Below, piece after piece: positions 8,876-30,860 of a stretch of DNA of 31,049 nt; positions within the stretch are counted from its first letter, which is position 1; every line of letters begins with the position of its first letter. The notes under the pieces are model-generated. The model saw only the letters and a program-made list of their open reading frames with translations. It was not told where the DNA came from and ran no database searches. Location of the stretch: the IMG/VR virus record IMGVR_UViG_3300031841_001076, positions 1 to 31,049 of that record, one strand, 5' to 3'. The position numbers and the translations under genes are program-made. This DNA is from a virus.

Positions 8876-9305
8876 GCTGTATGAGATCTGAAAGTTTACT
8901 GCGTGAATTTAACGTTGGTGTTTTTAAGTCAATTTTATTACCAGCAGGTCTGTATGCATTAATGGCCGCATAAGCATCTACTGTAAGTTTTAATGAATTT
9001 TGGTTCATTTCAAAATAGGTTGTAGGATGTAACCCTTGCACTTCTGCAACCTTTATAAGTACCCTTGACATAGCCCTTGCATTAGATTTTTTAAATCCTA
9101 TAGACTGTAATTTTGTTTCTATAACAGATAATGTACTAGGATCTATTGGAGTATCTTTTGGTGCGGCAATTTCTGATAATATTTCTGAACTTGCTTCAGG
9201 TAAGGGAAATTTTATACTTGCATTATCAATATAAGCCACAAGAGTATCTTGTACAATTTTGTATGATACTTCATTTCCAAATGTATTATACATTGATGTA
9301 GACAT
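8871..9305 (-). CDS. Unknown protein translationally coupled to ACP
   Basis: The 144-residue protein is not recognised. Residues 1-35 look like beta strands (VSYKIVQDTLVAYIDN). A helical middle includes IETKLQSIGFKKSNARAMSRVLIKVAEVQG, and the C-terminal third is polar and ends KLSDLIQP. The gene is the third of a chain of TAATG overlaps: tube-fold protein, ACP, then this gene. It therefore belongs to the late gp19 transcript. Its tight coupling makes it a candidate partner of the ACP or a small tail protein; neither can be shown from sequence. Confidence 0.7.
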   Translation of the reverse strand: MSTSMYNTFGNEVSYKIVQDTLVAYIDNASIKFPLPEASSEILSEIAAPKDTPIDPSTLSVIETKLQSIGFKKSNARAMSRVLIKVAEVQGLHPTTYFEMNQNSLKLTVDAYAAINAYRPAGNKIDLKTPTLNSRSKLSDLIQP

Positions 9306-9523
9306 TATGCATAGTCCTTAATATACTGCTTAATTGCTTTTACTGTGATTAATTCTTCTGCATCTTCGTCTGGTATTTCTAAATCATATTCTGTTTCAAA
9401 TGCCATCACAAGCTCAACTATATGTAATGAATCTCCACCTAAGTCATCAACTATGTGTGCATCATCTGTAACTTTATCGATATCTATATCTAAATAATCT
9501 GCTATAATTTTTTCTACTGACAT
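9305..9523 (-). CDS. acpP: Acyl carrier protein
   Basis: The 72-residue, strongly acidic protein has the full ACP pattern: helix I (VEKIIADYLDID), then DDLGGDSLHIVELVM with the phosphopantetheine-accepting serine at S32 in the DSL motif, and helices II-III ending VKAIKQYIKDYA. All key features of type II ACPs are present, so it should be loaded by a host holo-ACP synthase. In cells ACPs carry acyl chains for fatty acid, lipid A and other syntheses. Here it sits in a tail gene operon, with TAATG overlaps to the genes on both sides, so it is expected late and in fixed ratio with them. Its partner enzyme is not in the window. Confidence 0.93.
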   Translation of the reverse strand: MSVEKIIADYLDIDIDKVTDDAHIVDDLGGDSLHIVELVMAFETEYDLEIPDEDAEELITVKAIKQYIKDYA

Positions 9524-17966: not shown

Positions 17967-18923
17967 TTATTTGCCGCGACTGAAGTTTTTTCTCTGATTG
18001 TGAGGTATATTATTTTCTATAATGTTTTTCCAAACTTCTATAGTTTTATCTAACCCTTGACTAAGTTCTACTTTTGGAAACCATCCAAGTCTAGTAGTAA
18101 TTTTATGATTTGTGCTATTCAATAAATAAATTTCTCCAGGTCTTTTTGGTTTAGTATTCCAATTTACATGACCGTTCCAATCTAATTTATCAGCAATTAA
18201 TTTTACATAGTCCTTAATTTTAATTGCATTATCTGGACCTATGCAAAATATTTCTCCAGCACATTTTTCCGGATTTGTTATTACGGTTTCCCAAGCATCA
18301 AGTAAATCATCAATATAGATAAAGTTTCTGTATGGCTCACCATAACCTAAATTTATTTCATCTGGATTTTTTAACATTTGTGTAATAATTTGTTCTGTCA
18401 CAAAAAAGTCATTGTCTTTTCTACCATAAGCATTTGTTTGACGTATTGCTGTGAATGGCAAACCATAACTTCTGTGAGCATACTCTAAGTACTTTTCACA
18501 GCCATATTTTGCAACGGCGTAGGGGGCATTTGGATTTGGTGGTGTTGCTTCGTTAAATGCAATAATACCTTCTTCTTTTCCGTCTCTGATAATATCACTA
18601 ATAGGTTGCCAGCCATATACTTCCATTGTACTTGCAAACACAAAGTTTTTCAAGTTAGGTAAATCTTTTGCAATTTCTATTAAATTTACTGTACCAGTAT
18701 AATTAATATCACTAAATGTGATTTGTTCATAAAAACTTTGCTCTACTTCTGTTCTTGCCGCCAAATGTACAATAATTTCAGGATCAAATGTAGATATTTG
18801 CATAGCAACTTTTGAATGGTCTCTTAAATCTTCCGATAGAAAACCTAGCTCGTGTTTATCTTTTAATCTTTCCACCATGTGCTGACCTATAAAACCGTCC
18901 GCTCCTGTTATAAAAATTTTCAT
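17967..18923 (-). CDS. NAD-dependent sugar epimerase/dehydratase (extended SDR)
   Basis: The 318-residue protein is of the extended short-chain dehydrogenase family that acts on nucleotide sugars. The Rossmann motif GADGFIG (G7, G10, G13) is at the N-terminus, the catalytic YxxxK is Y135/K139 (APYAVAKYG), and S98/T99 in FASTMEVYG supplies the third residue. Substrate-domain segments RQTNAYG and NFIYIDDLLDAW are also typical. It could be a 4-epimerase or 4,6-dehydratase; sequence alone does not decide. It is the last gene of the metabolic cassette and overlaps the upstream oxygenase gene by 4 bases. Confidence 0.9.
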   Translation of the reverse strand: MKIFITGADGFIGQHMVERLKDKHELGFLSEDLRDHSKVAMQISTFDPEIIVHLAARTEVEQSFYEQITFSDINYTGTVNLIEIAKDLPNLKNFVFASTMEVYGWQPISDIIRDGKEEGIIAFNEATPPNPNAPYAVAKYGCEKYLEYAHRSYGLPFTAIRQTNAYGRKDNDFFVTEQIITQMLKNPDEINLGYGEPYRNFIYIDDLLDAWETVITNPEKCAGEIFCIGPDNAIKIKDYVKLIADKLDWNGHVNWNTKPKRPGEIYLLNSTNHKITTRLGWFPKVELSQGLDKTIEVWKNIIENNIPHNQRKNFSRGK

Positions 18924-19465
18924 ATTAAATCCTTTTCTTTTGCATACCCTGTGAGTTGCATTGTAAATCTAGGTTCATAACCTAAGTTAGCGACTGAATG
19001 AACTAAATTTGGTCTTATAATAGTAAAGTCTCCCTTTTTATAATCTAACCAACTTTCATTCTCTATTTCTATATAATGGCCCATTAATCTATCTTGTAAG
19101 AATAAATTTACTCTCACAGGTACCATTCCTTCTGTATCCATATCTTCTCGTTCTGCTTTTTTACGCATTTTATATAATGTATCAACATGCGGTGCTATAA
19201 ATCTACCTGGCATAAGTTTATTTACTGTAACTATACCATAATGAAGCCAATCACTAAAATGATCATATACACCATGAACCCAACTTGGGCAATCGTCCTC
19301 AAACACTTGCCATACCCAAGGTGCTTCATATGGGTAATCTGGTACTGCTACACCTTTGTCTTTCCAAAAACCGCCACTGTAAACAGTATTAGTATGCTCT
19401 GTAAACTTTAGCCTGTATAACATTTCTTCTGTTATATGGCTTATATCAACATGCCCTTTATACAT
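18920..19465 (-). CDS. Fe(II)/2-oxoglutarate oxygenase-like protein, paralogue A
   Basis: The 181-residue protein has H93/D95 (APHVDTL) and H156 (NLVHSVAN) as likely iron ligands, with R166 (EPRFTMQLTG) ten residues after the last His, the usual place for the Arg that binds 2-oxoglutarate. Order and spacing fit the Asp/Asn beta-hydroxylase type of beta-helix oxygenase. It is a tandem paralogue of the next gene upstream: both share PHxVD, a G-HYxE strand, W-K-GDF/EW and a late V/I-x-N-x-GxEP segment. It overlaps its neighbours by 8 and 4 bases within the cassette. The substrate is unknown, perhaps the product of the amidinotransferase or aminotransferase pathway. Confidence 0.75.
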   Translation of the reverse strand: MYKGHVDISHITEEMLYRLKFTEHTNTVYSGGFWKDKGVAVPDYPYEAPWVWQVFEDDCPSWVHGVYDHFSDWLHYGIVTVNKLMPGRFIAPHVDTLYKMRKKAEREDMDTEGMVPVRVNLFLQDRLMGHYIEIENESWLDYKKGDFTIIRPNLVHSVANLGYEPRFTMQLTGYAKEKDLI

Positions 19466-19952
19466 TTTTTAACACAGTTACTTGTGCAGAGTAAAATGGT
19501 TCTTCTCCCATATTACCTGCTATGTGCCAATCGTCTATGCCAAACTTTACCCATTCACCTGCTTTCCATTTTGTAAAAGGTTGATCGTGTACTTCATAAT
19601 AATGCCCACGTTTCCAATCTTCTAAAAATATCAAATATCGATAACTTTCACCTTCTCCATGTTCTTGTTTTAATTTAAAATGTTTATCAACATGATGTGG
19701 AATTGTTTGTCCAGGTTCTATGTTGATAACACTTACAACATGATGGTCAAAGTCTTGAGGTATCTTTTTGGCTAAGTCATGTACCCATTGAGGGGAAGTT
19801 TCAAACATCTGCCATATACTGCTATTATGTTTTGTATAATATTTTTCTACAGCAGGTGTTTGCTGATAACATTGGAAATAGTCGTCAAAGTTTAATTGAC
19901 TCATTTGCTCATGAGTTATTCCAAAGTTATCAATTTTTCCGTATTTAATCAC
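19458..19952 (-). CDS. Oxygenase-like protein, paralogue B, lacking the 2-oxoglutarate Arg
   Basis: The 164-residue protein aligns by eye with paralogue A. Iron ligands H87/D89 (PHHVDK) and H143 (DWHIAGN) are present. At the place of R166 in paralogue A the sequence reads EPFYSAQVTV, with Phe/Tyr instead of Arg. The enzyme may bind its co-substrate differently, or act as a non-catalytic partner of paralogue A. It overlaps the amidinotransferase gene by 8 bases and paralogue A by 8 bases, so the three are translated together. Confidence 0.7.
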   Translation of the reverse strand: MIKYGKIDNFGITHEQMSQLNFDDYFQCYQQTPAVEKYYTKHNSSIWQMFETSPQWVHDLAKKIPQDFDHHVVSVINIEPGQTIPHHVDKHFKLKQEHGEGESYRYLIFLEDWKRGHYYEVHDQPFTKWKAGEWVKFGIDDWHIAGNMGEEPFYSAQVTVLKNV

Positions 19953-21006
19953 AGTAACTTTCTAAAGTGCCTTTACGTCTTAAGTCTAATGTAGCACAAT
20001 GAATACCGCCAGACAACGTCATAGAGTGCCTAAACTGAACAGGTACACTATCTATACCATACTTGTCTAATTCTCGCATCAGAGGCTCTTGAGCTGAGTC
20101 TAAGACTACTGTATTCTCATCTACACTTAGTAGATTCATTCCAATGTACGGAGAACATGGTGGCATATATCCTTGCTCTGCAAGTTTACTTCCTTGTACT
20201 ACGCAATCATCAAACCAAATTTTATCCCATTTCTTAAACATTTCAGGACAATTATCAGGTGTTACCCTTGAACTGTTCATTAGTACTAGTCCTGGTCTAA
20301 GTGGAACAATAGTGCTATCAAAATGTGCAAAACTGTATAGTTCACTGTAATGCATTTTATAACCCATTGGCTCTAGTAATCTTTTAAGCCATTTGTAACC
20401 TTTCATGTTACCTGAATTACTTACTTGATATAATAAATCTTTTCCAACTCTCACAATATTTGGTGCATCAAAACATATCTCATGATCTAATAATGTTGGT
20501 TTGTCTTCAATGTCTTCAAATGTGTACATGTCATCATGTAAGTTTGGTTTAGGTGCTTGTAACCATAATGCACCATCTTCAAATGCTTCGTACATTATGT
20601 CTTCATATAATTTTGTTTCAAAATATCTTGCTCTTACAGGAGTAGGAGTTTCAATTAACATATCACCTAATGGTAATATTAAGTCTCTTGGGCACCAACT
20701 ATACCAGCCTTTTGTGTTCCAACCTTGACCAATGTCGTAATTTACATTGTCCCAATCAATAATTTTTGGTCTGCGTACTTTTACGCCCATTTTTGTTAGT
20801 GCATCTGCAAGTCCGTCCGCATCTTCATTTGCTTCGTCAATTACCCATTGCGGATAAGTGCCTTCTAATTTTTCTACATCTTCTTTTTTAAAATTTGCGT
20901 AACTGAAACTTCTTGCGGATATATCAGTTGCAATTCTGCTGTGGTGGGCATGTCCAACGATGATCTCTTCTAAAGGATCCCAATCGTTGTGGGAATTAAC
21001 TATCAT
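19945..21006 (-). CDS. Amidinotransferase (arginine:glycine / inosamine amidinotransferase family)
   Basis: The 353-residue protein moves the amidino group of arginine to an amine. The N-terminus NDWDPLEEIIVG is the family signature. The catalytic triad is visible: D180 in CFDAPNIV, H228 in SFAHFD and the nucleophile C337 in GGIHCATLDLRR. The spacings (48 and 109) are close to those of human AGAT (D254, H303, C407). The length matches StrB-type enzymes (about 350). The acceptor may be glycine, an amino sugar or an aminocyclitol; the neighbouring aminotransferase, epimerase and glycosyltransferase-like genes favour a sugar-like acceptor, as inference. The start has an AGGAGA Shine-Dalgarno and a late octamer at 21040-21047. 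Confidence 0.93.
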   Translation of the reverse strand: MIVNSHNDWDPLEEIIVGHAHHSRIATDISARSFSYANFKKEDVEKLEGTYPQWVIDEANEDADGLADALTKMGVKVRRPKIIDWDNVNYDIGQGWNTKGWYSWCPRDLILPLGDMLIETPTPVRARYFETKLYEDIMYEAFEDGALWLQAPKPNLHDDMYTFEDIEDKPTLLDHEICFDAPNIVRVGKDLLYQVSNSGNMKGYKWLKRLLEPMGYKMHYSELYSFAHFDSTIVPLRPGLVLMNSSRVTPDNCPEMFKKWDKIWFDDCVVQGSKLAEQGYMPPCSPYIGMNLLSVDENTVVLDSAQEPLMRELDKYGIDSVPVQFRHSMTLSGGIHCATLDLRRKGTLESYCD

Positions 21007-21039
21007 TATGTCTCCTGTGATGTGTTTAATATAACGTAC

Positions 21040-21047
21040 TATTTATT
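21040..21047 (-). promoter_or_regulatory. Late promoter octamer of the amidinotransferase-epimerase operon
   Basis: AATAAATA on the minus strand, 33 nt before the ATG at 21006, with AGGAGA in the leader. The four downstream genes overlap and should share this transcript. Confidence 0.75.
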
Positions 21048-21057
21048 ATATCTTAAA

Positions 21058-21933
21058 CTATCTGGCTAGCCATTCTGATACACAAACCCTGTAGTTTCCA
21101 TGTACACCTCTATTAAATTCGCTATGCCTTGTTTCATCACCTAAACCAAAAATTACTGTGTCTGTATATACCAATCCTTGTTGCTCACAGACATCTTCAT
21201 ATATGCTCCTATATTTTTCCCAATTATAATCAGGAGAAAAATTACGCATATATTCTACCCCTAAAGCCATGCTATATTTATTTTGCATTTTAACTTCGTT
21301 GAGCATACTAACACCATCATCTACATACTGTCTTGTAAATCTGATACCTACTCTGTGATTTTCTAATGTATAAAAAGGCTTACTTAGGCTACAGGTTACT
21401 TCTTCTATAGCAGGAAAATCATTCAAATCTATATGCATATTTTTACTGATACCCCAATATGCTAAGTCTAAACAAACTGGTATATCATGAACCTTACATA
21501 CTTGCATAATATGTTCGAAATCTGGATGTATTACACCATAATCACTAAAAGGCGCACTTATAATTAACGCATGTAATCCTATACCGTTCAAGGCTTCTTC
21601 TAAATGATGAGGATAATCAATATACTTAAAATCAACATGTTTTCCTAAACAAGCATGATATTGAAAATCTCCTGATAAACAAATTATTTGCCTGTCTTTA
21701 CTATGGCGTAGAATAAATTGATCAAATGTTTGACTAGTACCTTGTGTATAATCAGCATAGTTAAATTTTTCTAAACCCAATAAACTTTTACAAGAACTAA
21801 AGTTTAACCACTCCTTCCAGGTATCAGTATATTGTTGCATTGTAGGAATAACAATATCATTTTTATCTAAGTGAAAATGAAAATCTGTTAATTCTTTATT
21901 TTTAATTGGTCTTGCACCTCTAACTGCAGGCAT
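21058..21933 (-). CDS. PLP-dependent aminotransferase-like protein (fold type I), short
   Basis: The 291-residue protein has core marks of class I/II aminotransferases: D156 in PVCLDLAYWG (pairs with the PLP ring nitrogen), K185 in CSLSKPF (Schiff-base lysine) and R194 in NHRVGIRF (phosphate contact). Upstream, YTQGTSQTF and ICLSGDFQYH fit the N-terminal part of the PLP site. At 291 residues it is about 100 shorter than usual, mainly through a reduced C-terminal small domain, so it may be a minimal or specialised enzyme. The 5' end overlaps the glycosyltransferase-like gene by 14 bases. In this cassette it could supply the amine that the amidinotransferase modifies. Confidence 0.75.
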   Translation of the reverse strand: MPAVRGARPIKNKELTDFHFHLDKNDIVIPTMQQYTDTWKEWLNFSSCKSLLGLEKFNYADYTQGTSQTFDQFILRHSKDRQIICLSGDFQYHACLGKHVDFKYIDYPHHLEEALNGIGLHALIISAPFSDYGVIHPDFEHIMQVCKVHDIPVCLDLAYWGISKNMHIDLNDFPAIEEVTCSLSKPFYTLENHRVGIRFTRQYVDDGVSMLNEVKMQNKYSMALGVEYMRNFSPDYNWEKYRSIYEDVCEQQGLVYTDTVIFGLGDETRHSEFNRGVHGNYRVCVSEWLAR

Positions 21934-23287
21934 TTATAACCTCCTCAAAAAAATTATTATTACTTATTCGTCTAAATTTACCAGTTGTAATATTTTTATA
22001 ATTATGTGCTACATCATTTTTTAACAGTTCCATCATTCGTAAAAAATGAGTATCTGACATACTTCTAATACTGCTAATGGTATTAAAAAATCCTTGTACT
22101 CTTAATTTTAGTGTATCATGAGTATTAAAACTTATATCCCAAAATTTATCAAATGTTTTAAAATCTAGTTTTTGTAACTCTTCATACAATCCTTTACACC
22201 CTATAGTTATAAATGGCTTCTTAAAATACATAGGAAACATTTGTTTTTCATCTACATAACCATATCCGTAAGGCTCTCCTCCAGGTATTAACGCAATATG
22301 GCCTGTTTCATAAAGCCAAGGACCTGGTACTCCTCTATCGTTCAAAGTATCAAGATCTATAATATGTGGCCTACTATACAATACCTGTGTGATACCAGAC
22401 ATTTCCTTTTCTGTAAGTTTTTCATTTTTTAAAAGGTCATGCATAGCAGTTGCCATTAAATTAGTATGATATGGGTATTCCTCTTTGGTATTAGGATTAT
22501 CATATATCTTTGCTAAAAAACTAGGATTCATAGAGTAGTTCCTAGAGTATGTAACATCTTCTAATTTATTTCCTTTATGCTCAATGTAATACGAAATTAA
22601 AAGCCTATGACTTCTGCAATTTCTCATTGTTAGTAGAAATTTATTTTTTAAATCTTTATACTCATCCAACCCTTCAGGAGGTTCTATTTGGTTTAAATTT
22701 ACGTGAGTATTTTTGCTTAATATACTTGTAATATAATGTACTCTATCTAAATACCATAATTTATGTATTTTATGTACATTTTTACAATGTTTTAAATGCT
22801 TATCATAATTTCCAAAAAAGTCTTGTGTTTCTCCTGACCCACTAATTATAAATTGCACTTGGGGGAATAAACTTGATAATTTTACAAAATACATATTTGC
22901 ATCGAAAAAATATGGCTCTGTGCTTGTATAAACTAAAAATACTGTATTGGGTAGATTATAATTTACGCATTCTGCTATCTTTTCATCAATAAGTTTACCA
23001 AAATCTGACAAAGTAAATTTTTCACCTGCAGACTCATATGACAAAGGAAAACTTTGAAAGTCTATAGGAAATAAATTAATTGAATCTTTAGGGACATTGC
23101 CATCTAAATTATGTATTATATTAAAATTAAATTTTTCATTATCAATATTTCTACTGTCATTTAATTGGCATAGAACTTCTAAAGGAAGTGGCTCTCTCCC
23201 TAACCATCCTATTTCATTATGCTTTCTTACTACCTCGTCTTCAAACTGAAAGCCATTATGTAGATATATAATATTAATATTTTTCAT
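21920..23287 (-). CDS. Glycosyltransferase-like protein (exostosin/GT-B-like C-terminal motif)
   Basis: The 455-residue protein has no clear N-terminal domain, but two segments resemble a viral glycosyltransferase-like family: KFLLTMRNCRSHRLLISYY at about 216-234 and, at 348-384, a block beginning KQMFPMYFKKPFITIGCKG and continuing YEELQKLDFKTFDKFWD. The second corresponds to the nucleotide-sugar-binding region of exostosin-like enzymes. The start at 23287 lies only 9 nt after the encoded CCA of tRNA-Ser, with AAGGG next to the tRNA end as Shine-Dalgarno, so tRNA and gene share a transcript. Candidate acceptors are a virion protein or phage DNA; no evidence separates these. Confidence 0.55.
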   Translation of the reverse strand: MKNINIIYLHNGFQFEDEVVRKHNEIGWLGREPLPLEVLCQLNDSRNIDNEKFNFNIIHNLDGNVPKDSINLFPIDFQSFPLSYESAGEKFTLSDFGKLIDEKIAECVNYNLPNTVFLVYTSTEPYFFDANMYFVKLSSLFPQVQFIISGSGETQDFFGNYDKHLKHCKNVHKIHKLWYLDRVHYITSILSKNTHVNLNQIEPPEGLDEYKDLKNKFLLTMRNCRSHRLLISYYIEHKGNKLEDVTYSRNYSMNPSFLAKIYDNPNTKEEYPYHTNLMATAMHDLLKNEKLTEKEMSGITQVLYSRPHIIDLDTLNDRGVPGPWLYETGHIALIPGGEPYGYGYVDEKQMFPMYFKKPFITIGCKGLYEELQKLDFKTFDKFWDISFNTHDTLKLRVQGFFNTISSIRSMSDTHFLRMMELLKNDVAHNYKNITTGKFRRISNNNFFEEVINACS

Positions 23288-25987: not shown

Positions 25988-27340
25988 ATGGCAGGTAAAA
26001 ACTTAGATTACTGGTATGATGAACAGATAAAACGTTATCTTATTCAAATTATTAGAATCTTTTCAAATTTTCAAACAAGAGAGTACACTAAAAATGGTGT
26101 AAAATATAATCGTGTACCTGCAAGATATGGTGATGCTAATAGAATGGTGGCCTCCATAATGCGTAATAATTCAGAAAATATTATTAATAGTGCACCTTTT
26201 ATAAGTGTCACTATACAGAGTTTACAACCTGCAAGAGATAGAACACACGAACCGTTTTTGGTAGATACTACCCAGGTAGCAGAAAGAGAATTTAATAAAG
26301 AAACACAAACATATCTAAACGATCAGGGAAGTCTATTTACCACACAAAGATATATGCCAGTACCATATAACATGACTATACAAATGGATTTATGGTCAAA
26401 TAATACTGATACTAAACTACAAGTACTAGAACAAATTTTTGTATTGTTTAATCCTAGTATACAATTACAGTCTAATAGTAATCCGCTAGATTGGACTAGT
26501 GTATTTGAAGTTGAACTCACAGATATTGCTTGGAGTAATAGAAGTGTTCCTGTAGGCACAGATGATTCTATAGATATTTCTACATTAACATTTGCTGTAC
26601 CTATTTGGATAAGTCCTCCAGCAAAGGTTAAAAAACAATCAATTATACAAAGAATTATAGCAAATATACATAGTGTAAGCAGTATTTCAGATTTAGGATA
26701 CGATGAAGACTATGCAGACTTTTTTGGAGATATACAAGATACTGCTGAAGTTGTAGTCACACCTGGTATGTATAGTGTGAGAGTTAGTGGTGCTAGTGCA
26801 ATATTACTAAATGAACAAGGTGTTGAAGTAAAATGGAGTGACATAACCGAAATGCAGGGAGATGTCAGAACTACCAGTTTACTTAAACTTAATACTAGTA
26901 ACGACTCAAATAACTTTTTAGGAGAAGTAATTGGTACTATATCAGTAGATAGTACAAATCCTAATAATCTAATTTTTAATTTAGACGCAGACACTTTACC
27001 CACAGACACTATAAATGATGTTGACAAGATTATTGACCCTAGAGGAAATTACCCAGGAGATGGAACTTTAGAGGCCGCTTCAAACGGGCAAAGATATTTA
27101 ATTACAGAGGAATTGTCCTCTACAGGTTATCCAAACTGGAATATAGATGCTCAACCTAATGACATTATAGAATTTAATGGTAGCAATTGGGTAGTATCGT
27201 TCGATGCCAGCTCACAATCAGGAAATACCCATTATATGCACAACACATTTACATCCAAACAATATCAATGGACTGGTACTCAGTGGATAAGTAGTTATGA
27301 AGGAGAGTACAAACCAGGATATTGGAGGCTTGTATTGTAA
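25988..27340 (+). CDS. gp15: Tail sheath stabiliser / tail terminator gp15-like
   Basis: The 450-residue protein has an N-terminal domain (about 1-225) that follows T4 gp15. It includes DYWYDEQIKRYLIQIIRIFSNF, KYNRVPARYGDANRMVASI, a QRYMPVPYNMTIQMDLW strand, LQVLEQIFVLFNPSIQL and a terminal strand with FAVPIWISPPAKVKK. gp15 caps the finished tail and binds the neck. T4 gp15 has 272 residues; the extra 225 residues here form a C-terminal extension with a beta-rich part and two surface-type units (DIIEFNGSNWVVSF and YMHNTFTSKQYQWTGTQW). The gene ends in a TAATG overlap with the Nudix gene. Confidence 0.85.
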   Translation: MAGKNLDYWYDEQIKRYLIQIIRIFSNFQTREYTKNGVKYNRVPARYGDANRMVASIMRNNSENIINSAPFISVTIQSLQPARDRTHEPFLVDTTQVAEREFNKETQTYLNDQGSLFTTQRYMPVPYNMTIQMDLWSNNTDTKLQVLEQIFVLFNPSIQLQSNSNPLDWTSVFEVELTDIAWSNRSVPVGTDDSIDISTLTFAVPIWISPPAKVKKQSIIQRIIANIHSVSSISDLGYDEDYADFFGDIQDTAEVVVTPGMYSVRVSGASAILLNEQGVEVKWSDITEMQGDVRTTSLLKLNTSNDSNNFLGEVIGTISVDSTNPNNLIFNLDADTLPTDTINDVDKIIDPRGNYPGDGTLEAASNGQRYLITEELSSTGYPNWNIDAQPNDIIEFNGSNWVVSFDASSQSGNTHYMHNTFTSKQYQWTGTQWISSYEGEYKPGYWRLVL

Positions 27341-27768
27341 TGAAAACAACTGCGGCAGGAGTAGTATTCCTAGCCAAAGACACAGGAAGATGTATGTTGC
27401 AACTTAGAGAAGGCAACAAGCGATTTAATCATACCTGGGGTTTTTGGGGAGGAATAATAGAAAAAAATGAATCTCCTTATGAATGCATAAAAAGGGAATT
27501 ACTAGAAGAAATAGGTTTTGTTCCTGAAATGCAAAAGTTAAATCCTATAGACGTATATCAAAGTAAAGATAAAAACTTCTTTTATTATAGTTTTGTGTAC
27601 GTTGTAGATAATGAATTCCAACCACCAAAGTTAAACGGAGAAAGTGCCGGATATGCCTGGGTAGATATAGGGCAATGGCCTAAACCACTTCATAACGGTT
27701 CTAAAATCACATTATATAAAAATGGTGGTACAGAAAAACTGCATACTATTCTAGAAATAAATTCTTGA
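27340..27768 (+). CDS. Nudix hydrolase
   Basis: The 142-residue protein contains a perfect Nudix box at residues 38-60 (G38, E44, R52-E53-L54, E56-E57, G59), which binds the metal and cuts nucleoside diphosphate-X bonds. The family covers NTP, ADP-ribose, NAD, sugar-nucleotide and RNA-cap substrates; nothing here fixes the choice. The ATG at 27340 is chosen over an in-frame TTG at 27322 because GGAGG at 27324-27328 fits it and it forms a TAATG overlap with gp15. It is expressed with neck genes, that is late. It could clean up nucleotides or process a nucleotide sugar from the cassette. Confidence 0.93.
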   Translation: MKTTAAGVVFLAKDTGRCMLQLREGNKRFNHTWGFWGGIIEKNESPYECIKRELLEEIGFVPEMQKLNPIDVYQSKDKNFFYYSFVYVVDNEFQPPKLNGESAGYAWVDIGQWPKPLHNGSKITLYKNGGTEKLHTILEINS

Positions 27769-28777: not shown

Positions 28778-30847
28778 CTATTTAGTTGTTTTGCGTTCAA
28801 CTCCGTCCCATTCGCCTTTAGGCATAGGTTGTTTGATTCTTACTGCATAGAGATCTGCAAGGGTATCGTTCCATTTATGATCTTTAATTATTTCTAGTTG
28901 ATTAGAACACTCTGCCCATGCTCTGTTTTGATATGCATCAACCATTCTGTTTACGACTCTTGCATACTTATGATCTTGTAATATAGTATAAATTGTTACA
29001 GGTGCTGTTTGTCCTTTAACTGCAATTTTATCCAGCATTACTAAATTTTCCGGCGTTGTTATTTGTTTTAGTGTATGCTCTGTAAACATAAAGAACACAC
29101 CATACTCTTTTGTTTGTGCTTCTAAACGTGCCGCTAAGTTTACACTATCACCTAATACGGTGTAATCAAAACGTTGGTTACTACCCATGTTACCTACTAC
29201 CGCATCGCCTGTGTTAATACCTATACCAACACCTAATTCCATTAAGCCATCTGCTTTAAGTTCTTTATTGAGAGTTGCTAATTCTGTTTCCATTTCCTGT
29301 GCTGTTTCTATTGCCAACTGAGCATGGTTATCAACATCAAGTGGAGCATTCCATATCGCCATTAAGGCATCACCTATATACTTGTCTATTGTGCCTTCTT
29401 TACGCATAACTAAATCAGTCATTGGAGTCATATATCTGTTTATGAGTTTACCTAAACCTTGTGGGTCTGTTTTAAACTGTTCCGATATGGGAGTAAATCC
29501 ACGAATGTCTGAGAACAAATATGTCATTGTTCTTGTGTCACCACCTAAACGTAATAGGCTTGGATCTTTTTGTAACTTTTTAACCATTGCTGGTGCAAGG
29601 TAATGTTCAAATTGTTTCTTAATTTGTTCACGTAATTTAAACTGTTTATAAAAGTTATTAAATGCCGCCTGTGTAAAAACTAAAAAGCCACTTAGAACAG
29701 GAAATGTTGCGTCTACTAGTACTAAACTACCTGTGTATTGTCTTACACTATAATATGCTATACCGCCTAAAATCGCTAAGGCAATAGGTGCCGTTAGTAG
29801 TAAAGGTAATCTATATACTGCTAAAGCAACTAAAGTCATTACTAGAAGTGCTGTCAGAAGCTCGTAGAACGCGGCTAACTGGCTTCTTGTTATATTACTA
29901 CCACTTATAAAGTTCTGTAGCATATGAGCTTGTATCTCTTGTGGATATAAGTTTCCTCTAGGTGTAGGTACAGGGTTTGCTATACCTTCTGCTGTAACAC
30001 CCACTATCACCATTTTACCTGCTAAATCTGGTATACTGTCTGCTCCTGTATATTCTATAGTCTCAAAACTATTATTAAAACGTATATATGCTGTGCCGTC
30101 TGGTTGAGTAATAATAGGTTCGAATCCTTTTACAGCAACTTCCTGTATTCCTATTTCACTTGTTTTAACTATATAACTTTTATTACCTGTTTTAACTCTC
30201 AACATTTCTACAGCAAAAGAGGGGTATATTTTTTCACCCACAGTAATTGCTAATGGGTATGTTCTTGTTTGATTGTCTGGCTGTGGTGCAGAAGCATTTA
30301 CTCCTTTTCCATTTGCCATTGATTCTAATATAGGAACATTGGTAACCAAGTTGGGCCATTTTAACAAATAATCTTTTGCTGGTACAGGACCAATTGTGCC
30401 TGTGCCTATATGAGGTCCAGATGTTTTTATACCTTTTACACTAGGTGTTTGGCTTAGTACATTGTAGTTAATCGGATTTCTTCTTGCTCCAGGAACATTA
30501 ACTTTATTTTGTTCTAAAAAACTAGCAAAAGTAGGGTCTCCTCCAAAACGATCTTCTTCTGGAAACATAATAGTCCAACCCACAACTCCACTATTTTTAC
30601 TTGCAACATCTACAATTAGTTGAGCATAATACTGCCTGGGGAAAGGATATTGGCCGTAAGTTGCTAGAGTGTTTTCGCCAAAGTTAAGTAGTACAACATC
30701 ATCGCTTTGTACTAATTCATCTAATTGTTGGTAACTGTCAAAAACTTGACCACGTAAACTTTGTAATGGCGTAGGGTCAACTACCCTTAGTGCGAGTAAT
30801 AATGCTATAGATAGTACTACTGCGTACCCGCTGTATAACCATTTCAT
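28778..30847 (-). CDS. Membrane-bound class III adenylate cyclase with CHASE2 sensor domain
   Basis: The 689-residue protein has an N-terminal membrane segment (about 4-21), a periplasmic CHASE2-type sensor (about 25-315, with VVLLNFGENTLATYGQYPFP and AGKMVIVGVTAEGIANP), three membrane segments (about 327-345, 348-367, 374-393) and a class III cyclase domain (about 430-620). All catalytic residues are present: metal-binding D447 (FSDIRGF) and D493 (YIGDALMAIW), adenine-selecting K489 and D561 (FDYTVLGDS), and transition-state N570 and R574 (NLAARLE). It should make cAMP from ATP. A GATAAATA octamer 5 nt before the ATG puts it under late control. Such a sensor-cyclase is a bacterial-style gene and unexpected in a phage. 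Confidence 0.95.
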   Translation of the reverse strand: MKWLYSGYAVVLSIALLLALRVVDPTPLQSLRGQVFDSYQQLDELVQSDDVVLLNFGENTLATYGQYPFPRQYYAQLIVDVASKNSGVVGWTIMFPEEDRFGGDPTFASFLEQNKVNVPGARRNPINYNVLSQTPSVKGIKTSGPHIGTGTIGPVPAKDYLLKWPNLVTNVPILESMANGKGVNASAPQPDNQTRTYPLAITVGEKIYPSFAVEMLRVKTGNKSYIVKTSEIGIQEVAVKGFEPIITQPDGTAYIRFNNSFETIEYTGADSIPDLAGKMVIVGVTAEGIANPVPTPRGNLYPQEIQAHMLQNFISGSNITRSQLAAFYELLTALLVMTLVALAVYRLPLLLTAPIALAILGGIAYYSVRQYTGSLVLVDATFPVLSGFLVFTQAAFNNFYKQFKLREQIKKQFEHYLAPAMVKKLQKDPSLLRLGGDTRTMTYLFSDIRGFTPISEQFKTDPQGLGKLINRYMTPMTDLVMRKEGTIDKYIGDALMAIWNAPLDVDNHAQLAIETAQEMETELATLNKELKADGLMELGVGIGINTGDAVVGNMGSNQRFDYTVLGDSVNLAARLEAQTKEYGVFFMFTEHTLKQITTPENLVMLDKIAVKGQTAPVTIYTILQDHKYARVVNRMVDAYQNRAWAECSNQLEIIKDHKWNDTLADLYAVRIKQPMPKGEWDGVERKTTK
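28779..28786 (-). promoter_or_regulatory. Late promoter-like octamer, 5 nt before an ATG
   Basis: ACTAAATA on the minus strand, then GTAGT and the ATG at 28773. It lies in the last codons of the cyclase gene and overlaps its TAG stop. The match to NATAAATA is imperfect at the second position, but the spacer is the same as at gp17 and gp13. Confidence 0.6.
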
Positions 30848-30852
30848 ACCGA

Positions 30853-30860
30853 TATTTATC
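30853..30860 (-). promoter_or_regulatory. Late promoter octamer of the cyclase gene, 5 nt before the ATG
   Basis: GATAAATA on the minus strand, then TCGGT and the cyclase ATG. The TAA within the octamer (30858-30856) is also the stop of the upstream partial reading frame. Confidence 0.87.

Follow-up and report, generated by a model that had tools for sequence, protein, structure and literature searches.

A predicted CHASE2 receptor adenylate cyclase associated with a curli cassette in a PA5oct-like phage lineage

Background

What would a phage gain from a membrane receptor that makes cyclic AMP? The question is raised by a gene lying at one end of a viral record of 31,049 bases (the whole stretch analyzed here, called the window). 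The initial annotation, made from the sequence alone, described this gene as a complete CHASE2-adenylate cyclase under a late promoter and suggested that raised cAMP could redirect host carbon metabolism, that CHASE2 could sense envelope state or osmolarity, or that nucleotide-signal defence could be disturbed.

Curli genes of phages have been described without discussion of the cyclase (PMC7029224, PMC9004378), no clumping being seen (PMC9004378), and a pelagiphage curli cassette including cyclase and FecR was described in 2022 (PMC9599517). The combination of cyclase and curli genes is thus already known from pelagiphages. In the literature on phage curli genes we found no phage with demonstrated secretion of curli-like fibres from infected cells, and a literature search found no report of curli genes in PA5oct-like phages. 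New here is the PA5oct-like lineage as a carrier of the cyclase-curli cassette; the spacing of the late octamer is one of two additions to the published cassette.

Results and Discussion

The cyclase gene and its product

The cyclase ORF is complete and intact in the ORF listing and runs on the minus strand from 30847 to 28778 (Table 1), a strand left unstated in the initial annotation. Pfam recognizes CHASE2 (2.2e-32) followed by Guanylate_cyc (6.1e-19) within the single protein, and hydropathy analysis marked hydrophobic segments at residues 2-28, 322-368 and 372-393. The helices of an AlphaFold2 model (mean pLDDT 84.6, pTM 0.63) agree with the hydropathy, and both give the order of one transmembrane helix, an alpha/beta domain, three transmembrane helices and the catalytic domain. 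The protein has therefore the receptor-type topology, with one transmembrane helix before and three after CHASE2, and the description of a complete phage-encoded CHASE2-cyclase was borne out.

Table 1. Positions of the cyclase gene, its domains and its flanking features in the window
Feature	Position	Strand	Basis or remark
CHASE2 receptor adenylate cyclase gene, 689 aa	28778..30847	-	ATG at 30847, stop TAG 28780-28778
N-terminal membrane helix, residues 2-28	30764..30844	-	Hydropathy; helices 2-5 and 7-23 of the model
CHASE2 domain, predicted periplasmic, residues 17-340	29828..30799	-	Pfam PF05226, 2.2e-32
Three membrane helices, residues 322-393	29669..29884	-	Hydropathy; model helices 325-346, 349-374 and 381-413
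Class III (IIIb) cyclase catalytic domain, residues 440-622	28982..29530	-	Pfam PF00211, 6.1e-19
Late-promoter octamer GATAAATA	30853..30860	-	5 nt from the cyclase ATG; shares bases with the upstream gene's stop codon
3' end of upstream gene, cut by the contig end	30856..31047	-	Counterpart in relative L001 is a 170-aa gene preceding the cyclase
Downstream gene, 119 aa	28414..28773	-	ORF listed from 28800, likely start ATG 28773; CTAAATA variant 5 nt before ATG

Over residues 9-688, practically its whole length, the protein matches PHROG 35576, a family of unknown function, and by this match it is a member of a recorded phage protein family. A viral structure library gave a single full-length match to the model, an uncultured Caudovirales protein (TM 0.89). 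When the whole model was used in a fold search, the PDB matches listed were all cyclases and were uninformative about CHASE2.

All six key catalytic residues claimed by the initial annotation were found: D447 and D493 (metal), K489 and T563 (purine), and N570 and R574 (transition state). They are identical in the window and in its 45 complete close relatives. A Thr as the purine partner of Lys is characteristic of class IIIb, an ATP-type group of class III cyclases. Since T563 aligns with the Thr of CyaC, the window cyclase can be assigned to class IIIb, and K489 and T563 indicate ATP as the probable substrate and 3',5'-cAMP as the product. By sequence and by fold (target-normalised TM-score about 0.8) the catalytic domain matches those of CyaC (1wc0/1wc1), Pseudomonas aeruginosa CyaB (3r5g) and Cya2 (2w01), the matched chains of which have no CHASE2 part, unlike the window protein. 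CyaC and CyaB carry Thr at the purine position as the window protein does, whereas Cya2 (2w01) is a guanylyl cyclase in which the purine Lys, kept as K489 in the window, is absent.

The more distant relatives L068-L081 have Ser at position 563. The cyclase of the cultured phage Melnitz (L082, 12001-14049) has Asp at this position and the transition-state Asn 570 replaced by Ser, and may be impaired. A C-terminal tail ending in W(D/N)GV is kept in the window lineage and in Melnitz and is absent from L068-L080 and HTVC008M; the motif is also visible in the alignment with bacterial cyclases.

Relatives and selection

Relatives of the cyclase, the best 98% identical, are encoded on 171 viral stretches from many metagenomes. 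For the 46 complete sequences the median pairwise dN/dS was 0.110 across the gene and fell to 0.069 in the catalytic domain, the most constrained part, as expected of a gene that is under purifying selection and not decaying. A 210-aa gene on the opposite strand lies downstream of the cyclase throughout L001-L066. Matches labelled as Acinetobacter phage covered the catalytic domain alone, amid the ordinary chromosome genes mfd, hscA and iscS, and were discarded; one of these records (L083, Acinetobacter phage MD-2021a), with the same three genes around the cyclase, looks like host sequence filed as phage.

A late octamer at a fixed distance from the start codon

The start context of the cyclase reads GATAAATA-TCGGT-ATG. 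In the window ATAAATA lies exactly 5 nt before an ATG 8 times, against a mean of 0.30 at other spacings, and all 8 cases open ORFs of at least 60 aa (minus strand 30859, 16507, 8874, 8392, 5589 and 3307; plus strand 23432 and 24555). An octamer of the T4 late-promoter type, near TATAAATA, therefore precedes genes of the window beyond chance expectation. The same spacing is enriched in the 250-kb contig G001 (27 against a mean of 1.93 elsewhere) and in HTVC008M (8 against 0.91), whereas in a 40-kb late region of T4 the octamer-ATG spacing peaks at 27-28 nt and a 40-kb region of PA5oct showed no 5-nt peak.

Before the cyclase both octamer and spacing are kept in 46 of 46 sequences, 43 of them exact and 3 with one mismatch, even where the sequence or genes further upstream differ. 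The octamer is exact before the Melnitz cyclase and has one mismatch in HTVC008M; none was found before the cyclases of L068-L080. Thus the octamer noticed in the initial annotation is both present and conserved, and since TerL and several other genes of the window, predicted to be structural, carry it as well, the cyclase probably belongs to the late programme of the phage, as had been proposed.

Transcription from T4 late promoters starts about 5 nt past the octamer. Combined with this rule, the 5-nt spacing suggests by analogy that the cyclase message starts at the ATG, that is, that it would be a leaderless late message. Such a spacing may also bear on why late promoters could not be found in pelagimyophages by an earlier study (PMC7029224).

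The curli cassette

The window ends about 0.2 kb upstream of the cyclase, before any curli genes would be reached. Every relative with enough upstream DNA carries CsgF, CsgG, a curlin repeat protein, FecR and a second curlin repeat protein, then the cyclase; in the window's lineage smaller genes, up to several of them, can separate curlin 2 from the cyclase. In L039 Pfam detected CsgG (4.1e-48), CsgF (2.9e-11) and FecR (9.7e-11); the first curlin repeat was below the Pfam cut-off and the second curlin-type protein had no Pfam match. CsgF, CsgG, curlin and FecR lie upstream on the same strand in the near relatives L067, L010 and L039, and L067, whose cyclase fragment is 96% identical to that of the window, has the full series. 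Judged from these relatives, the window cyclase is most probably the last gene of a curli cassette (type VIII secretion) that is carried by the phage and includes FecR.

The gene order and domain architecture are those of the pelagiphage cassette (PMC9599517; HTVC008M AGE60353.1, Melnitz QZI94833.1), in which the cyclase is annotated. The window cyclase is 37% identical to that of HTVC008M and 35% to that of Melnitz. The window differs from the pelagiphages in its PA5oct-like affiliation and, in its lineage, in the extra genes between curlin 2 and the cyclase; it also keeps the transition-state Asn lost in Melnitz.

The octamer stands before curlin 2 in 10 of 15 members of the window lineage, as it does before the cyclase. 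No 5-nt octamer precedes csgF, csgG or fecR in this lineage, suggesting that its cassette genes may not all be expressed together; csgF of HTVC008M does have the octamer.

Phage lineage and probable movement of the cassette

The window shares its head-tail module with Pseudomonas phage PA5oct (Arenbergviridae, 287 kb), with 58% identity in TerL and 44% in the sheath protein, against 32% in TerL to HTVC008M. Its nearest large relative is G001 (TerL 81%). On these similarities the window phage, a marine phage of giant type, is assigned to a PA5oct-like lineage. Among its other genes, an acyl-carrier-like protein (PP-binding, 9.7e-13) is encoded at 9305-9523 (minus strand) inside the head-tail cluster, and a NUDIX hydrolase gene at 27322-27768 (plus strand) lies beside the tail sheath stabiliser, convergent with the cyclase. 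A block of metabolic-type genes at 17967-23287 (minus strand) stands among structural genes and includes an NAD-dependent epimerase; other proteins encoded there resemble, by eye, dioxygenases, an amidinotransferase and an aminotransferase, none of which Pfam matched at 0.001. The Rfam search found a single tRNA and nothing else.

The phage G007 is HTVC008M-like, with 68 shared proteins and identities to HTVC008M of 43% in TerL and 54% in the sheath protein, compared with 31% and 26% to G001. Its cassette proteins are nearer to those of G001 than to those of HTVC008M (CsgG 60 against 48%, FecR 50 against 34%, CsgF 52 against 37%), indicating lateral movement of the cassette. CsgF, CsgG and FecR, perhaps with the cyclase, thus appear to have moved between the PA5oct-like lineage and pelagimyophages. 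Lateral transfer between phage families, in either direction, is the simplest reading of these identities, unequal rates being the alternative. The cyclase alone would support such movement weakly: that of G007 is 44% identical to G001 and 43% to HTVC008M, and in the cyclase tree L068-L080 and the window lineage join before HTVC008M and Melnitz (SH-aLRT 93).

Bacterial relatives of the cyclase

A quick-search tree with midpoint rooting, in which the 77 nearest bacterial rows were included, set all 20 phage rows apart at a branch with SH-aLRT 100; the window cyclase groups there with the other phage cyclases, those of HTVC008M and Melnitz among them. Identity to the nearest bacterial cyclases, most of which are alphaproteobacterial, is about 35%, and the CHASE2 cyclases at the bacterial loci were about 27-38% identical. 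The tree that the initial annotation had called for, in search of the donor lineage, therefore gave a single phage group with mostly alphaproteobacterial neighbours and resolved no finer donor lineage.

FecR was found, as in the phage cassette, near the CHASE2 cyclase in 31 of 80 bacterial loci; in 19 of them it was directly adjacent, within 151 bp. Unlike in the phages, csgG or csgF stood beside the cyclase in none of the 80, and a CsgG match was absent from 12 of the 13 genomes examined that have such cyclase loci. A search of 289 genomes from the class to which G014 belongs gave three loci with CsgF above the cut-off, and neither FecR nor a cyclase lay within about 10 kb of any of them. A single bacterial donor operon holding both cyclase and curli genes was therefore rejected, none being found intact in these loci and genomes, in line with the statement that the cyclase does not occur within bacterial curli operons (PMC9599517). 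Since FecR occurs near bacterial cyclases and CsgG/CsgF stands beside none of them in these loci, the cassette looks as though two modules of bacterial origin, the FecR-CHASE2 pair and the curli genes, had come together in phages.

Possible function of the cyclase

We consider the chances about even that the protein is a late-expressed membrane receptor cyclase of the curli cassette, which monitors the envelope or curli export through CHASE2 and FecR and makes cAMP. A T4-type late promoter of its own would drive expression of the cyclase late in infection, probably giving a leaderless message; periplasmic CHASE2 and periplasmic FecR would read the envelope state or the curli export of the infected cell; the cytoplasmic domain would dimerise and convert ATP to cAMP, and this would act on a host cAMP receptor. 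The intact domains and catalytic residues, purifying selection, cassette linkage in relatives and the late motif give this reading its basis at the level of sequence. The production of cAMP, the periplasmic sensing of curli or envelope state, the FecR-CHASE2 partnership in the phage and the host effector are what we infer from it.

Support for the sensing half comes by analogy from bacteria, where FecR lies near CHASE2 cyclases in the loci counted above. The CHASE2-cyclases CyaD1, CyaD2 and CyaK of Sinorhizobium meliloti are alike in domain architecture, and CyaD1 without CHASE2 makes cAMP constitutively (PMC5498481). In the BiofilmReg operon of Burkholderia, which is tied to biofilm, a periplasmic FecR stands by a CHASE2 membrane sensor as it does here, although the output there is a histidine kinase instead of a cyclase and no curli genes are reported in the operon, unlike the phage cassette (PMC5192318).

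An active cyclase might instead raise cAMP to adjust host metabolism by way of a host regulator of the CRP family, with no functional tie to the curli genes. Its intact and strongly conserved catalytic residues, its own late octamer and the genes that separate it from curlin 2 in the window's lineage would fit this, but wherever a relative extends far enough upstream the cyclase is linked to the curli/FecR cassette, which argues against independence, and metabolic reprogramming would be less useful late in infection; we regard it as unlikely. The redirection of carbon metabolism proposed in the initial annotation drew no support from any result, and eight related phage records, including one of 250 kb, yielded no cNMP-binding protein (PF00027). 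Nor did any result favour the sensing of osmolarity through CHASE2.

The substitution of the transition-state Asn in Melnitz, which has the same cassette, suggests that catalysis may not be needed in every phage, and the protein could act mainly at the membrane as a partner of, or scaffold for, the FecR/curli machinery, with cyclase activity secondary or being lost in some lineages. The six residues are, however, invariant in the window lineage and the catalytic domain is the part with the lowest dN/dS, and such a role seems quite improbable for the protein.

It is highly improbable that the product floods or confuses a nucleotide-signal defence of the host, for which no result spoke: in its favour stands only that the protein, if active, would make a cyclic nucleotide. 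K489 and T563, which indicate ATP as substrate and hence 3',5'-cAMP, count against it, as do the late timing of the gene, its membrane sensor and its place among secretion genes. The chance that the gene is an assembly chimera, a host fragment joined to a phage contig, is negligible despite its position at the contig end and its bacterial architecture, and the chimera was ruled out by the 45 complete relatives with dN/dS of 0.11, by relatives with identities of up to 98% that occur on many viral contigs (one of 250 kb) from many metagenomes and share the same phage neighbours downstream, and by isolated phages bearing the same cassette.

Conclusions

The fullest form of the receptor reading is a PA5oct-like marine lineage in which FecR and the CHASE2 cyclase would act as a feedback sensor on the phage's own curli export, cAMP would be made only late, messages would be leaderless from a T4-type promoter fixed so that transcription starts at the start codon, and the block would be traded between distant phage families. 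Taken whole, this proposal is tentative and we hold it to be somewhat unlikely. With the octamer lying exactly 5 nt from the ATG, leaderless late translation can be put to the test. The window's lineage combines a signalling enzyme with a secretion system, of which we found no earlier report in these phages, and if the cyclase is active, the cultured phages HTVC008M and Melnitz would allow one to ask what a virus gains from cAMP and curli in an ocean bacterium.
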